A program made the position numbers and the translations under genes. Under the pieces are notes generated by a model. It had not been told where the DNA came from and did not search any database. It saw only the letters and a program-made list of their open reading frames with translations. From positions 1 to 30,089 of the IMG/VR virus record IMGVR_UViG_3300008113_005031: 30,089 nucleotides of DNA, one strand, 5' to 3'. The first letter of the stretch is position 1. Every line of letters starts with the position of its first letter. Of this stretch, positions 3,478-30,089 are shown one piece after another. The stretch comes from a virus.

Positions 3478-3753
3478 GTGTCAAAATTGACGCCGCCTTG
3501 GGAGTTTAAAGAAGCCCTCTGTGCTCAAATAGGTACAGAGGTCTTTTATTTAGAAGACAGAGATGAAGTTAAAGAACATGCTAAACAAGCAGACTACACT
3601 ATGGCAAAAAAAGTATGTCAAATCTGTACTCATCTTGTTGAATGCAGTGAATGGGGTATAAATAAAGAAAAATTTGGACTTTGGGGCGGCCTTACTCCAC
3701 AAGAAAGAAGATTTATAAGAAGAAAAAGACACATAGTTATAAATGAAGAGTAG
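3478..3753 (+). CDS. WhiB-like Fe-S transcription regulator (compact)
   Basis: A 91-aa WhiB-family protein. WhiB proteins hold a [4Fe-4S] cluster on four cysteines and usually act through the primary sigma factor on host or phage promoters. All four cysteines are present: C15, C47, C50 and C56 (C-x2-C-x5-C for the last three). They are followed by the turn GLWGG at 67-71 and the basic tail TPQERRFIRRKRH, which in the family contacts DNA. The start is GTG 3478 with AGGGAG at 3467-3472, five bases upstream. In mycobacteriophage TM4 a phage WhiB blocks host WhiB2 and contributes to superinfection exclusion, so a host-takeover role is plausible here. The gene is strong evidence for an actinobacterial host. 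Confidence 0.88.
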   Translation: MSKLTPPWEFKEALCAQIGTEVFYLEDRDEVKEHAKQADYTMAKKVCQICTHLVECSEWGINKEKFGLWGGLTPQERRFIRRKRHIVINEE

Positions 3754-4495: not shown

Positions 4496-4990
4496 GTGTG
4501 GAAACCTTCTGACAATCTAAACTGGCAAGAAAACGCAACTTGTGCAAAACCAAGCAATAGACATGCTATAAATTGGTTTTTCTCTAAAGATTTTAATGAA
4601 AAGTATGCTGCAAAAAATATGTGTTTTACTTGCCCAGTACGCTCTCAATGTTTACAATGGGCTTTAGAGCATAGACAAATATGGGGTATATGGGGCGGTA
4701 AAGATGAAGTAGATATTCGCAGAGCTCTTTCTGTGTCCTATAAAGGTGAAGAAACTAGAAGACGTAGATATCCTAATTGTCCATTTTGTACTGCTAGACC
4801 CTCTAAATTAGAAACATCGGTAGAGCAGCTTCCTGATGGAGGTAGATGGACTACTGCAAAAGTAGTGACTTGTACAGAATGCGGATTTGCTTGGAGAAGT
4901 CGCACTAGCGCTAATGCCGTCGAGTCCTATAAACTTGATAGACTAGATAAGTCAAAAAAGAAGAAAAAGACGAAACGGAAAACAACATGA
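4496..4990 (+). CDS. WhiB-like regulator fused to a C-terminal zinc ribbon
   Basis: A 164-aa protein in two parts. Residues 1-80 are a WhiB domain with C16, C43, C46 and C52 as [4Fe-4S] ligands and the turn GIWGG at 64-68. Residues ~90-135 add a zinc-ribbon-like unit with CPFC at 95-98 and CTEC at 126-129. The protein ends in a strongly basic tail (KSKKKKKTKRK). Typical WhiB proteins lack the extra ribbon; it may add DNA or RNA-polymerase contacts. The start is GTG 4496, and no ribosome site is visible; with the candidate promoter upstream the message would have a leader of only about 20 nt. An ATG at 4494 is out of frame. The last bases overlap the next gene (ATGA). The role is probably transcription control in the actinobacterial host. 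Confidence 0.85.
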   Translation: MWKPSDNLNWQENATCAKPSNRHAINWFFSKDFNEKYAAKNMCFTCPVRSQCLQWALEHRQIWGIWGGKDEVDIRRALSVSYKGEETRRRRYPNCPFCTARPSKLETSVEQLPDGGRWTTAKVVTCTECGFAWRSRTSANAVESYKLDRLDKSKKKKKTKRKTT

Positions 4991-5572: not shown

Positions 5573-6643
5573 ATGAAAGTAGCTGTATACACAATCGCTC
5601 TTAACGAAAGACAGTTTGTTGAGAAATGGTTTGAATCTGCAAAAGATGCAGACTATTTAATGATTGCAGACACTGGATCAACTGATGGAACTATTGAACG
5701 AGCTAGAGAGCTGGGAATAGTTGTATACAGTATAAAAGTAACTCCATGGAGATTTGATGACGCAAGAAACGCTGCTCTTGCACTTCTTCCAGAAGACATC
5801 GATATGTGTGTTTCTCTAGACATGGACGAAGTCCTTGCTCCAAATTGGAGAGAACCTTTAGAAGACCTTTGGAAACGTGGAGTAACTAGACCAAGATATA
5901 AGCATATTTGGTCTTGGAATGATGACGGATCGCCTGGATTAGAATTTAGCTACGATCATATACATGCTAGAAAAGGTTATAGATGGAGACATCCTGTACA
6001 CGAGTGTTTATATGTATATGGGATGGATGAAGTCCAAGAATGGACAGATAAAATAGAAACTCATCACCATCCAGATCCAACCAAAAGCAGATCTCAATAC
6101 CTTCCTCTTCTTTCTATGTCAGTAAAAGAAGATCCGTGGAACGATAGAAATGCTTTTTACTATGGAAGAGAGTTGTATTTTTACGGAAAATACAGTGAAG
6201 CAGCCGTAGAACTGCAAAGACATTTAGATCTTCCTACAGCCCGCTGGGCACCAGAAAGAGCTGCATCAATGAGATTTATTGGAAAGTCTCTACCAGACGA
6301 AGCAGAAAAATGGTTTAGAAGAGCTGTACATGAAGCTCCTGGAAGAAGAGAGCCTTTTGTAGATTTAGCAAAACTCTACTATCAAAACCAAGAATGGGAT
6401 AAATGTTTAGAGGCAGCTAAAGAAGCAATAGCTATAAAAGAAAAACCTCTAGAGTATTTATGTGAGGCAGAAGCTTGGGGGTATGCTCCTTGGGACTATG
6501 CAGCTATAGCAGCTTTCAATTTAGGTCTTGTAGATGAATCTATTTTGTATGCTCAGGAAGCATATCGAATTGAACCTACCGATGAACGACTAAAGGAAAA
6601 CCTAAAAGCTTGTTTAGCAGCTAAAAGTTTTAAACCTCAGTGA
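5573..6643 (+). CDS. Family 2 glycosyltransferase with C-terminal TPR repeats
   Basis: A 356-aa enzyme with an N-terminal GT-A domain and C-terminal helical repeats. Seen: AVYTIALNE at 4-12, DTGSTDGT at 33-40, DFDDARN-type WRFDDARN at 59-66, the metal-binding DMD at 83-85, and a VHE motif at 142-144. From about residue 185 to the end there are TPR-like helix pairs (for example YGKYSEAAVELQRHL and DKCLEAAKEAIAI). Enzymes of this layout transfer sugars from nucleotide donors to proteins or surface glycans, with the TPR part usually binding protein. The start is ATG 5573 with AGAAAGG nine bases upstream. The gene ends the + strand block and overlaps the 3' end of the minus-strand protease by 14 bp. 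Confidence 0.85.
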   Translation: MKVAVYTIALNERQFVEKWFESAKDADYLMIADTGSTDGTIERARELGIVVYSIKVTPWRFDDARNAALALLPEDIDMCVSLDMDEVLAPNWREPLEDLWKRGVTRPRYKHIWSWNDDGSPGLEFSYDHIHARKGYRWRHPVHECLYVYGMDEVQEWTDKIETHHHPDPTKSRSQYLPLLSMSVKEDPWNDRNAFYYGRELYFYGKYSEAAVELQRHLDLPTARWAPERAASMRFIGKSLPDEAEKWFRRAVHEAPGRREPFVDLAKLYYQNQEWDKCLEAAKEAIAIKEKPLEYLCEAEAWGYAPWDYAAIAAFNLGLVDESILYAQEAYRIEPTDERLKENLKACLAAKSFKPQ

Positions 6644-8194
6644 ATGTGAAAGGTCTTTGACCTTTCATAGGCATATAACAAACTCTGTTATTTCCTCCAT
6701 GTAAAGCTGTAGACACTGCATAGTCATTAGTTAAACCAGTGTCTCTCAGCTGTGCCTGAGACTTAGAAATCATCCACCTAACTACCTGAGATGGGGTCCA
6801 GTCTGGATGAGCTTGTAGAACTAATGCGGCTAGTCCAGCAACTTGCGGTGAAGCCATAGAAGTTCCTCCTAAAATGTCTTGTTTAAAATTTGAATTTTCG
6901 TTATATGGAAAACTAGTCGCACCATCGTTTGTTTCACTCATTGCACTTAGAATTCTTGATCCAGCTGCATATAGTGTGATGGCTGGGCCAGAATTGCTAA
7001 AAGAAGACTTAGTATCTAAACCACCAAAAGTTCCAGAACCTAAAGAACCAACATCAAAACCAAAACTAGTTCCAACTGTTGGAGATCCTTTTCTATGATA
7101 ATAGAAAGTACCAAAACCAGTTAAATTAATACTATTATCATAGTCTATTCCGCCTAAAATATCGGCTTTTACACTGTCATTTCCAGCAGCATTACATACA
7201 ACCACTCCAGCTGCTATCAGCTGAGCAATGTCTGCATCTGTTGAAGACACTTTATAAGGGAATCCATAAACCCCATTACCATAAGAAGCTCCTGTATGTC
7301 CTTTAGCTGTATCTCTAACTGAACCAGTCCAAGGTGTTCCTCTATATGTACCACCGTTTACTGCATAAGTAGTGCCACCACTAAAAGAGAAAGAAAAAGC
7401 ATTATCGTTTGTTCTCCAAAAAATACTATAACCCCAACTGTTATTTATTACAGTAGGTCTTGTATTATTTTTTGCTTGATGCCAACCTAGTAAAACATCA
7501 AAAGCTTGAGCTATAGATAATCCGTTTCCTGGATCTGGAGCTCCTTTTAGATCATTTAACTTTATAGCATAAATACGAGCATTTTTTGCCCATCCAAAAG
7601 TTTTGCCAGCTACAGTTCCAGCAACGTGAGTTCCATGTCCATCGTAATCTGTGTAAAAATTTGCTGGCATAGTACCTGGAACACCACTGGCAGCGAACCA
7701 ATCTATTTGTTGAAGTCTGCTATTCCCCTGAGCATCTTGCCATTCTGGGTGATCTGCTTGTATCCCGCTATCTAAGATAACAACATCTACCCCAGTTCCA
7801 TCTAAAACATAATCGTAAGTTCCGCCTGGATCTGCTGTAGAAGTACCAAAAACATTAGTAGTATTTGTATGACGTAAAAGACCCCAGTTACCTTTTCCTA
7901 GCTCAGCGCCAGTAGTTTTACTAAAATTAGAATCTTGAAATGCAAATTTTGTTACTGGAACAGAAGATGGATCAAAAACATCTACTACTCTAGGATCATT
8001 TTTAAGAGCTTCAGCTTCCTCTTCAGTAAGTAGATAATTAGTGTTTAGTTGATTAATAGCTCTTTCATCGGAAACTTCTACAGATCTATTAGGTACAGTG
8101 TTAGATGAAGTATTGTCAGAAACTAAATCATCCCAAACAGAATCAGTGTCTTCTAAACTAGATGTCGTGACTATATATTCTTTAAAGTCACTCA

Positions 8195-8195
<1 letters not shown>
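6630..8195 (-). CDS. Subtilisin-family (S8) serine protease
   Basis: A 521-aa subtilase with the full catalytic set: D142 in VVILDSGIQ, H187 in DGHGTHVAGTVAG, oxyanion-hole N339 in NAAGND, and S446 in GGTSMASPQVAG. Residues ~1-75 look like an I9-type propeptide (YLLTEEEAEALKNDPRVVDV region at 54-73). There is no signal peptide, so the enzyme is made in the cytoplasm and would reach the outside only with virions or after lysis. It is the last gene of the minus-strand structural block, overlapping the upstream fibre gene by one base (TAATG) with a weak ribosome site, so translation is probably coupled. Likely roles are maturation of virion or fibre proteins, or cutting host surface proteins. 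An insertion of about 60 residues (~255-315) rich in aromatics and glycine precedes the oxyanion strand. Confidence 0.92.
6645..6669. terminator. Hairpin at the convergent gene junction
   Basis: TGAAAGGTC (6647-6655) and TGAAAGGTC's complement (6659-6667) pair as a 9-bp stem with a TTT loop, extendable by a G-T and a T-A pair. It lies just after the + strand stop (6643) and inside the last codons of the minus-strand protease. It could act as a structure limiting read-through between the convergent transcripts. There is no T-run on either side, so a classical terminator is doubtful. Confidence 0.3.
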
Positions 8196-10072
<1,877 letters not shown>

Positions 10073-10088: not shown

Positions 10089-11594
10089 CTAGATTGCGCT
10101 TAGCGCCTTATGAATTATAGACCCTGTCATAACTGCATGTATCTGACAAATGTATCTGTAACCGCCAGAAGCAGGTGTCATAGGGACATTCCAGTAAATT
10201 GTTCCAGATCCTTTAGCTTGAGCCTGTGCACCAACACTTACTTCTCCACTTACACTTATATGGGTTATTCCTGTTTCTATATTAACAAAACCAGACCCTG
10301 TGTCTTCTTGAATAAGAAATGGATGAGCTAACAAGCCTTGTAGTTTAAAAGCAATAGTGGTTCCACCTAAAACATAAACTGAAGGGTTATCACCAGAATA
10401 ATGACTGCTTACTAAATAAGCACTAGCTCCATTATTAGTTACTTGAAGTTGTGCAATAGCTGGTTTAACTACATCTACAGTAACTCCAGCGCTTACAGCG
10501 TCGGTTAAATCGTTAAATTGAGTACTAGATTGTGGTCCAGTAGGTCCAGTAGGTCCTTCAGGTCCAGTAGGTCCTGTTACAGTACTAGCTGCACCAGTTG
10601 CACCTGTAGGTCCAGTATCTCCTGTTGCGCCAGTAGCTCCCGTTGGTCCTGTAGGGCCAGGAATAGTAGAAGGAGCACCTGTAGATCCTGTTGGACCTGT
10701 AGGACCAGCAATATTTCCTACATCATTCCAAGAAGTTCCGTCCCAGACATAAACTTTATTACTTTCTCCAGTAACAAAATAAGCGTGACCTACAGTTGCA
10801 CCAGTTGGTAGTAGTCCTATAGTTGCAACACTTCCTTGAACTTGAAGAGTTGTTCCTTGTGGACCAGTTGCTCCAACTGGGCCAGGACCACCGCCAGGTC
10901 CAGTAGGACCTGTAGGTCCTTCAACTCCACCAATTCCAGCAGGACCAGTTGCTCCCGTAGGTCCTGTTGCACCAGTTGGTCCAGTAGGACCTCCAGAAGG
11001 TCCAGTTGGACCTGTAACACCTTGCGGGCCTGTTGGTCCTGTAGATCCTGTAGTTGGAGTAGCTCCAGTTCCAACAGTTTCCCAGCCATTTTCTGTTTTT
11101 ACTTCAAGTGCGCCAAAACCATCATTTATTTCTGTATTAAATCTTACATAACCTACCTCTGCAGATCCTCGACGCTCTGCAGTAGTTCCTTTATCTAAAT
11201 AAAGAGTATTGTTTAATCCTCTAATTTCTTTATTAGTAAAAGTTTGAACTATGTTTTCAATTAAACCTAGTTCTTCTTGGACCATACCGTTTAATGTGAA
11301 AGAAACTGTATTTGTATTAGATCTTACATATAAAGAATCTCCATCACTAACAGCAAATCTAAATGTCTCAAAAGAAGAACCTATTGGAAGAACTAGATTA
11401 AAAGCAATATAACCGTACTGGGTAGTTAGTACAGCATTAGATGGGACAATCCAAATACTTACTCTAGTTATTGGATTTGCAGTTACAGCTCTATTTGCGG
11501 CAACTACTGACACTAAATGTGCAGAGTTAAAGGTCGTTAAACTAGTGTCGGTGTTAGCCGCAGGATTAGAGATTGCAAGTCGTTGTATCGCCAT
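10089..11594 (-). CDS. Collagen-like tail fibre with cupredoxin-like tip
   Basis: A 501-aa fibre. The N-terminal head (1-110) is a paralogue of the head of the downstream fibre ([26 protein letters not shown]). A segment with [12 protein letters not shown] lies within it. Gly-X-Thr collagen repeats follow, interrupted by a knob with [14 protein letters not shown]. Residues ~385-495 look like a cupredoxin: H424 in LLAHPFLIQ, and C483, H486 and M489 in [15 protein letters not shown]. That C-x2-H-x2-M spacing is the one seen in amicyanin, and the His-Cys-His-Met set is what a type-1 copper site needs. Similar domains occur, as I recall, in marine phage proteins, with no known role. AGGAG six bases before the ATG is a clear ribosome site. 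Copper binding is a prediction. Confidence 0.82.
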
Positions 11595-21384: not shown

Positions 21385-22302
21385 CTATACCGAGTAAGAG
21401 AGCTTTCCAGAGGCTCCAACAGCCAAAGCATTATTTTCTCCTATAAAAACTCCATTTATAGTAGAAGTTCCAAAAGCTGAAACTCTCTGAGCCCATGTAT
21501 TTCCATCAAAAGAAGTTGCCAGTTTACCTGTAGCTCCTCCTGCAATAAAAGTACCGTCATCTGATACAGCAATAGCTCTTACAGAAGATGCACCAAAAGA
21601 ACTTACTGGAAAAGTTTGAGTCCAAGATGTTCCATTTGTAGAGCTAGCAAATTTACCTGAATCACCACAGGCATAGAATCTTCCTCCATTAGTGGCTGTT
21701 ATAGCAAATATGCTGCTAGTACCAAAACTTGAAGATCTTTGTGTCCATGTTGTTCCGTTTGTTGAAGTAGCTAGTTTTCCATCATAACCAACTGCTACAA
21801 CAACAGAATTATTTGCCCAAACTCCATTAATATAAGTAGTTCCAAAACTTGAAGTTCTTAAAACCCATTCAATGCCGTCAACTGATGTAGCAAGTTTTCC
21901 AGATCCTCCAACAGCAATCCAAAGAGAAGCAGCTGCAAAATAATAAACTCCAAGAATTGGACTAGCTCCAAAACTAGAAGATCTAGCAGTCCAAGTAATT
22001 CCGTCTAAAGAAGTAGATAATCTTCCAGAGCTTCCTCCTGCAACATAAAGATTGTTTCCATAAGATATACAGTAAAGATTGTATTCTCCTATGTTTGAAT
22101 CTCTTGATGTCCAATTTTGAGTATCTGTAGATGTAAAAATTTTCCCATTGTTTCCAACAGTTGTATATAAACCACTATCAGGTTCATAATTAATTGCATT
22201 TATGTTAGATAAATTAAAACCAGAATTTTCCACTAACTGCCATGACACGGGAGTAAAGGGGAAAACTAAAGTTGCATGAAAAGCATGGGATGCTCTGAGC
22301 AC
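21385..22302 (-). CDS. Seven-bladed beta-propeller, BNR/Ycf48-like virion protein
   Basis: A 305-aa protein made almost only of ~40-residue repeats of the form I-x-x-V...AVG-x-SGKLATS-x-DG-x-x-WT-x-R-x-SSFG. Six full copies can be counted, plus a last partial copy ending GKLSYSV. The N-terminal WQLVENSGFN segment can supply the missing strand, which would close a seven-bladed propeller by the usual velcro arrangement. The blades resemble BNR/sialidase-type repeats, but no catalytic residues are recognised. A binding role, perhaps to host glycans, is more likely than hydrolysis. The start is taken as GTG 22302, one base after the preceding stop region, but no ribosome site is visible there; translation may be coupled, or start at the GTG nearer PVSW. 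Confidence 0.75.
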   Translation of the reverse strand: MLRASHAFHATLVFPFTPVSWQLVENSGFNLSNINAINYEPDSGLYTTVGNNGKIFTSTDTQNWTSRDSNIGEYNLYCISYGNNLYVAGGSSGRLSTSLDGITWTARSSSFGASPILGVYYFAAASLWIAVGGSGKLATSVDGIEWVLRTSSFGTTYINGVWANNSVVVAVGYDGKLATSTNGTTWTQRSSSFGTSSIFAITATNGGRFYACGDSGKFASSTNGTSWTQTFPVSSFGASSVRAIAVSDDGTFIAGGATGKLATSFDGNTWAQRVSAFGTSTINGVFIGENNALAVGASGKLSYSV

Positions 22303-22303
22303 T

Positions 22304-24193
22304 TTACACCGTCAGATTTCCGCTTAGAAGCCATTCGTTAGCTGATAGTTTTATCAAAGAACCTACAGCATATCTAGATTTAGTAGTAACTCTAGATCCT
22401 TCACTTCTAAGAGCAACTGAACCTAACGCTCTTACAGTTACTTGACCGACTCCAAGCTGTGTAAACAAAATTTGAGTTCCTGTAGGGAATGTATATCCAT
22501 TTGTTCCATCTTCTGGGATATCTAAGGTCATAGCTGAAGAGCTGTTCATTTTTACTATAGTTGCAACATCTGCGGCAACTAAAACGTGAGATGCGAGTCT
22601 GTTAGCTCCAACTACTTCAAAATTAGCAGGTCCTGTAGGACCAGTGGGTCCTGTTGCACCTGTTGGCCCTAGCGCTCCTTGCGAACCAGTTGCTCCTGTA
22701 GGTCCTGTTACAGTGCTATCCGCACCTGTAGGTCCTTGAATACCTTGTGCTCCTGTCGCACCTGTCGCACCAGTTGGTCCTTGAATAGGACCAGCGCTAG
22801 TCCAAGAAGTTCCATTCCAAACATATAAATTTCCATCTGATAAAACTGTCCAAGCATCATTGATTTGGTTTCCAGAGCTTGGAAGATTTCCAAATGTATT
22901 TACACTTCCTTTAAACTTAATAGAAATTCCTTGCGGACCAGTTGGGCCTTGGGGGCCAACTTCTCCAGATCCAAGAACTAAATTCCAACTAGCATATGTG
23001 TTTCCAGATCCTCCAACTTTATCTACAAGCATAGTTATGGAAGTTCCAACAATAACTGTTAAAAGTCCTTCCATAAAATTAGAAGGAACAGCTGTGCTAG
23101 CCAATCTTGCTCTAGTTCCAACAGTAAAGGCATCTACTTTATTTACAACAAAGTTTTTTGTTACTCCATTGTCAATAGTTAAATTGCTAGTAGAAGTTAC
23201 TCCTCTATAGCTAGGGCCTTCAGCACCTGTAGAACCTGTAGGTCCAGTAGCTCCCGTTGGTCCTGTAGGACCAGTTGGGCCAACAACGTTAGAAGCAGCT
23301 CCTGTCGCTCCTGTTGCACCAGTAGGTCCTGTTGGTCCTGGAATAGTTGAAGCAGATCCAGTTGCACCAGTTGCGCCCGTAGCTCCACGAAGACCTACTT
23401 CACCTTGTGCACCAGTTGCTCCCGTTGGTCCCGTGCTTCCTGTAGGACCTGTTGGTCCACCAGCAGGACCAGTTGGGCCAGTAATACCTGTAGCTCCTGT
23501 TGCACCTGTTACAGATGGTCCAGTTGCACCAGCAGGACCTGTGGGTCCTACGAAACCTCTAGGACCAGTAGGTCCTGTTGCACCAATCGTACCGATTGGA
23601 CCTGTCGCTCCAGTTGGTCCTGTATCACCTGCAGGACCTGTAAAACCTATAGGTCCTTGCTGTCCTATAGGACCTCTTTCACCCTCTGCTCCAGTTGCAC
23701 CTTGTACACCTGTAGGACCTTGAGGGCCTGTAGGACCAGTTATAGCTAAACCCTGAGAGCCTGTAGGTCCTGTATTTCCTTGAGGACCTGTCGCTCCAGT
23801 AGGACCAGTTGGACCAGTAATAGTAGATGCAGCACCTTCAGGACCAGTAGGACCCGTAGCGCCAGTAGGACCAGCTGGGCCTATATTTGAAGAAGCTGAC
23901 TCAACCCAATAACCATCATAGTAAATATAAATTTGACCAGTTTCAGAGTTAAACCAAGCATCGCCTTCGTCTCCTGATAGTGGAGGAGATACATTTGCAA
24001 TTGAAAAGGCACCAGTAGCACCAGTTGGTCCTGTTACGTTTGATGCAGCTCCTGTTGCTCCAGTTGGTCCTGTAGGGCCAACAACTTGAGAGATTACAAG
24101 ATCCCAAGAAACTCCGCTCCATATCCAAGTTTGACCGTTGGCGGAAAAAATTTCATTTGGTGTAGGTGAGTTAGGAAAATCTATAGCTGACAT
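22304..24193 (-). CDS. Collagen-like tail fibre with AIDFP adaptor
   Basis: A 629-aa fibre. The N-terminal adaptor [16 protein letters not shown] followed by [12 protein letters not shown] is shared with two neighbours. A knob with [19 protein letters not shown] lies near residues 75-95. Long Gly-X-Thr repeats are broken by a beta segment ([17 protein letters not shown] region) and an LYVWNGTSW knob. The last ~105 residues (from [14 protein letters not shown] to WLLSGNLTV) form a tip with [17 protein letters not shown], a common phage tail C-terminal fold. The ribosome site is GGAG ten bases before ATG. It probably forms a trimeric receptor-binding fibre. Confidence 0.83.

Positions 24194-24925: not shown

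Positions 24926-30089
<5,164 letters not shown>

Follow-up and report, generated by a model that had tools for sequence, protein, structure and literature searches.

A predicted cupredoxin domain with a complete set of type-1 copper ligands on a collagen-like phage tail fibre

The stretch of DNA analysed here, called the window throughout, comprises the 30,089 nucleotides of the IMG/VR virus record IMGVR_UViG_3300008113_005031. One of its genes encodes a collagen-like tail fibre protein of 501 amino acids, and the C-terminal domain of this protein is supported as a member of the cupredoxin superfamily by its predicted fold and by the order of its putative ligands. A known fold was thus found in an unexpected place and with a wide distribution, and the comparison of related sequences points strongly to selection acting on the site.

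Layout of the collagen-like fibre

The fibre gene (10089..11594, minus strand) is an open reading frame with an ATG start, and its product matches PHROG tail and tail fibre families. When the entire protein was searched with Pfam, Collagen was the sole match (1.6e-8). The protein begins with an N-terminal domain of approximately 108 residues (11271..11594, minus strand), followed by a linker, a first collagen-like stretch with GPTGPTG repeats (approximate limits 10845..11069, minus strand; matches to PHROG tail fibre families start at residue 176), a spacer (residues ~251-292) and a second collagen-like stretch (approximate limits 10515..10718, minus strand; Pfam Collagen at residues 297-355). 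The latter runs into the ligand-bearing cupredoxin domain (residues 378-501; 10089..10463 including the stop codon, minus strand). The adjacent gene (8195..10072, minus strand) encodes a collagen fibre of 625 amino acids, as judged by Pfam and sequence comparison. Its N-terminal ~108 residues resemble those of the 501-residue fibre (37% identity over 108 amino acids, E 2e-19) while the C-termini differ, therefore the common domain is presumed to be the attachment end. This arrangement suggests exchangeable far ends, as in tip swapping. The N-terminal domain of the 501-residue fibre also matches a stand-alone protein of the phage DSL-LC01 at 54%. A spacer module of ~45 residues with the pattern GS...LPTG...DAY.V...LYVWNGT.W..VG lies between the collagen stretches of several fibres; it is found at 10719-10844 (minus strand), with similar modules in 8195-10072, 22304-24193 and 24926-29971.

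Predicted fold of the C-terminal domain

An earlier note, made from the sequence alone, had proposed a cupredoxin-like domain in the C-terminal ~110 residues of the fibre. The predicted structure, its comparison with known structures and the profile alignments all support this fold and the register of the ligands. The C-terminal location was right, while the length given was slightly short, as the domain spans about residues 378-501. The same note had named a fold other than a Greek-key beta barrel as grounds for giving up the idea, and on this point the prediction turned out in favour of the note. Using AlphaFold2 with an alignment of 22 sequences (alignment A1), residues 378-501 were confidently predicted as a beta sandwich (mean pLDDT 92.7, pTM 0.86) with cupredoxin matches in the PDB. 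At the top of the Foldseek list stood copper nitrite reductase (2dv6) together with rusticyanin (1gy2), at E 8.6e-4 and probability 1.00, with amicyanin, laccases and plastocyanin at lower ranks. VIA-align gave a Z of 10.5 to 3wia (107 residues, rmsd 2.4 A) and of 10.3 to 2dv6 (97 residues, rmsd 2.4), and the matches listed are proteins of the cupredoxin fold. In the predicted model H424 stands directly before a strand, and C483, H486 and M489 are found where one strand ends and on the loop that leads to the final strand, a placement as in the type-1 copper proteins of the cupredoxin group.

The ligand set and its register

The translated reading frame carries H424 (within LLAHPFL; codon at 10323..10325, minus strand), C483, H486 and M489 exactly where the earlier note had placed them, with the last three forming a C-x2-H-x2-M loop (10128..10148, minus strand). 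The note had compared this spacing to amicyanin, and the alignments to PDB proteins agree. Type-1 copper sites classically use such a His-Cys-His-Met set in cupredoxin register. In alignment A1 the four residues are invariant among 22 relatives of 43-99% identity, and the full motif was found in 110 of the 113 profile matches from the first loci, the remaining 3 being split or partial matches; both observations indicate that the motif is more than chance.

A profile built from 47 ligand-bearing domains with less than 70% identity (A2) retrieved almost exclusively copper proteins from the PDB; the best E-values were modest (8.9e-4 to 0.01), the list being consistent. In the full-length alignments to plastocyanins, the C-x2-H...M loop coincides with that of plastocyanin and the histidine falls on the plastocyanin histidine (PPHNILF, TGHNIVF), so that H424 is the predicted N-terminal His ligand. 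The profile alignments also bring the ligands into register with amicyanin. The four ligands are the sole invariant columns of A2, partly by construction, as the members were selected as ligand-bearing. The Pfam model PF00127 (Copper-bind) scored the C-terminal piece at 12.5 to 12.8 bits, below its curated cut-off of 21.2, and yielded nothing above threshold over the whole window; the relative from phage S-MbCM7 (AHB80591.1) reached 19.4 bits. Among the NCBIfam models, including the amicyanin model TIGR02657, the window domain found no match, though its loop has the amicyanin length. A PDB search with the single domain sequence gave no useful match, profiles being required. Pfam PF25489 (At5g54830-like domain) was matched by ten of the 47 domains in A2, at best with 1.6e-5, which suggests a link to a eukaryotic domain family.

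Distribution of the module and joint retention of the ligands

Related sequences in marine phages, mentioned in the earlier note, do exist: 253 GenBank phage records, nearly all of cyanophages, contain the domain. In IMG/VR at least 400 confirmed loci were obtained in one scan with the domain, and two further scans with cyanophage queries returned about 400 loci each. An iterated profile run over all reading frames of the fetched loci yielded 348 domains, 271 with all four ligands and about 70 with none, with very few intermediates (HSTL, HCHQ). Reducing the set to less than 70% identity left 67 domains: 47 with four ligands, 18 with none, 1 with one and 1 with three. All-or-none states were therefore observed in 65 of 67 domains (97%), compared to 27% expected if the ligands were independent of each other. 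As this expectation assumes independence and related sequences are not independent, a tree was built. On this tree the ligand state has to change three times, and well-supported branches force two or more of these changes; shuffled ligand states require 20 changes, and none of 500 shuffles was as low. We were aware of the fact that some of the search patterns included HPF or C-x2-H. Such patterns as the source of the ligand conservation were rejected by counting outside the search seeds: the 135 non-seed domains comprise 74 with four ligands, 59 with none and 2 with one. From the counts and the tree we conclude that the four residues are retained or lost jointly, the behaviour that a single metal site would be expected to show.

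Within the ligand-bearing copies, 130 of 267 domains lie within 40 residues of the C-terminus. Some copies are internal, so that not all of them are tips. In a single case, the HCHQ domain of locus L241 (ORF 3271, residues 416-533), glutamine stands at the methionine position; glutamine is the axial ligand in stellacyanin-type sites.

A ligand-free relative in the window and the proposed role of the site

The window contains a second predicted cupredoxin-fold domain, at residues 1428-1533 of a collagen fibre of 1681 amino acids (25373..25690, minus strand), which lacks the ligands. It was found with the family profile (E 5e-10) and scored 31.9 bits with the profile from the first round of A1 matches; AlphaFold2 predicted it with a pLDDT of 90.7, and VIA-align gave a Z of 9.9 to the NirK 2dv6. 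Profile drift as the source of the ligand-free class was considered and is disfavoured by the earlier-round profile together with the independent structure prediction. This domain has its own family of 32 loci with 50-82% identity, and the ligands are absent from all 22 translated relatives. A conserved ligand-free fibre domain with a predicted cupredoxin fold indicates that the fold can serve a fibre without metal. Both options given in the earlier note, copper binding by the tip and use of the fold with or without metal, thus seem to be realised in the family, which has ligand-bearing and ligand-free lineages, one of each being present in the window. That the fold apparently serves without metal in some lineages while the site stays intact in others favours a working metal site, most likely of copper, over a leftover.

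We give about an even chance to the explanation that the domain is a metal-stabilised receptor-binding or attachment module, with copper as the most likely metal. The cupredoxin would form the far tip of a collagen-like tail fibre, which is probably a trimer. A single copper ion, acquired once the protein has folded or the cell has lysed, would be held in a type-1-like site by the four conserved residues of the domain; the ligand set points to copper rather than another metal. The metal would lock the compact beta barrel, which would work outside the cell as an exchangeable tip for receptor binding or attachment, and the subtilase encoded nearby may act at the same step at the host surface. 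Against this explanation count the PF00127 score below the cut-off, the ligand-free relative and the internal ligand-bearing copies.

Copper might also play no part at all, the domain being an adhesin built on the cupredoxin fold, with four residues that are purely structural or bind another metal such as zinc. Such an adhesin agrees with the ligand-free members, which are conserved fibre domains of the same predicted fold, and with the use of metal for stability in some fibre tips. The iron of the long tail fibre tip of phage T4 (gp37) is the precedent; it resembles the window fibre in placing a metal in a host-contacting tip, as proposed here, and differs in that the iron is held by HxH motifs of a needle and not by a cupredoxin. 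We nevertheless consider a copper-free adhesin somewhat unlikely, since Cys-His-His-Met in cupredoxin register is the type-1 set and is retained or lost as a whole, and since the set includes methionine, a poor zinc ligand.

Cellular relatives

Known cupredoxins of the PF00127 type (amicyanin, plastocyanin, rusticyanin) share with the window domain the fold and the ligand set in the same order, and the C-x2-H-x2-M loop has the amicyanin length. They are, however, soluble or lipoprotein electron carriers, whereas the window domain is presumed to belong to a virion fibre and stays below the sequence cut-off of the family. A first scan of genome contigs with A1 gave no match. With a cyanophage domain as query, 24 loci were found in bacterial and archaeal genomes, mostly metagenome-assembled genomes (MAGs) of Bacteroidota and Myxococcota. 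Several of these proteins are short and carry all four ligands, and some of the contigs are phage-like (for example L321). A plasmid search returned one weak match. The MAG cupredoxins of Bacteroidota, Myxococcota and Bdellovibrionota contain a GHPFYIKT...C-x2-H-x2-M domain as in the phage module, but they are short, seem on inspection by eye to have a signal peptide and a lipobox, and are not located on phage fibres.

This likeness to lipoprotein-like bacterial surface cupredoxins, together with the position of the module on presumed host-contacting proteins, would fit a Trojan horse, in which a loaded site mimics or presents copper to a copper-binding surface protein of the host and thereby mediates adsorption. 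An analogous proposal exists for iron in phage tails, the Ferrojan horse hypothesis. For copper we regard it as improbable: neither a copper uptake gene nor a receptor could be tied to the module in this analysis, and the phages that carry relatives have very different hosts.

Domain combinations and the neighbouring subtilase

The module was found in combination with a gp9 N-terminal domain, with collagen, with a YHYH domain and with a subtilase. In cyanophage gp9 it forms the C-terminus after a T4 gp9/10 N-terminal domain, while in P-SSM2 it follows collagen; in S-MbCM7 and AG-345-P14 it stands at the end of subtilases, and the fused forms are seen in loci L306 and L307. In the DSL-LC01 protein WJZ48554.1 (L304:14991-16361), annotated as hypothetical, a cupredoxin domain with the ligands comes after a YHYH domain. 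The module matches seven PHROG families, of which five are tail or baseplate proteins. The window domain matches phrog_677 (E 2.8e-19 and, over profile positions 304-407 of 412, 1.8e-18), the family of cyanophage gp9, annotated as baseplate wedge tail fiber protein connector. Like the window protein, gp9 of S-SSM5 carries a C-terminal cupredoxin module with four ligands; it matches PF07880 (T4 gp9/10-type N-terminal domain) and has no collagen, whereas the window protein combines another N-terminus with collagen.

The C-terminal piece of the window fibre also matches the end of phrog_9158 (5.3e-9). The remainder of this family is covered by the window subtilase of the S8 type (6630..8195, minus strand; Peptidase_S8 2.1e-32; phrog_9158 1.2e-75 over residues 5-501), in which the Asp, His and Ser motifs are present. 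In the fusions (phrog_9158, S-MbCM7 AHB80591.1) both modules belong to one polypeptide, but in the window subtilase and cupredoxin fibre are separate reading frames, with the subtilase downstream of the fibre and one fibre gene between them. A full-length subtilase was present within the fetched flank in 15 of the 17 nearest loci. The window subtilase is probably a virion protein.

Both the C-terminal place in cyanophage gp9, named a fibre connector, and the fusion to subtilase would agree with an assembly role, in which the module docks fibre, gp9 and protease to one another within the tail. We see little likelihood in this, as the connector function of gp9 is a name transferred from T4 and, in the window, collagen repeats lead into the domain at the C-terminus of its fibre. 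Electron transfer or redox sensing, with a change of state at the host surface that triggers contraction or protease action, is very improbable: type-1 sites are electron-transfer sites and the fusions with subtilase and gp9 place the domain near triggering parts, but a search of the window for a redox partner gave none that could be recognised, and the sequence carries no sign of a partner-docking patch.

Relation to the literature and significance

Previous work on phages and metals has mostly dealt with iron in tail tips. In the open-access literature we found no description of a cupredoxin on a virion, and neither a paper that links cupredoxins to phage tail fibers nor one on cupredoxins in cyanophages. 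The main text of the virion proteomics paper on S-SM1 gives 41 virion proteins, and in that text gp9 was not found.

For the metal-stabilised attachment module preferred here, a complete blue-copper ligand set, retained as a unit in hundreds of contigs of aquatic phages and in gp9 of common cyanophages, means that the host-contacting parts of these phages may be loaded with copper. The general form of this idea, that many aquatic phages bear copper-loaded centres on the tail parts in contact with the host and need the metal for adsorption or for triggering of delivery, appears unlikely; if true, copper supply would affect phage infection in lakes and oceans. Whether copper is present in these virions and whether adsorption depends on it are testable questions, since cyanophages with laboratory hosts are available and the matched ligand-free lineages offer natural controls. 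Independent of the metal, a concrete predicted fold is gained for proteins whose sole label has been hypothetical protein or baseplate wedge tail fiber connector.

Host and further genes of the fibre cluster

The window is syntenic with DSL-LC01. This phage could not be treated as an isolate, as it is metagenome-assembled; it is predicted to infect Actinomycetia (PMC10611076). Two WhiB-family genes of the window (3478-3753 and 4496-4990, both plus strand) point to an actinobacterial host, and the window phage probably infects freshwater actinobacteria. Within the fibre cluster, 21385-22302 (minus strand) encodes a protein of 305 amino acids with repeated SFGTS...W..R blades and with matches to DUF6242 and, weakly, to WD40/Kelch. 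In DSL-LC01 the gene at the matching end of the cluster is annotated as photosynthesis system II assembly factor.
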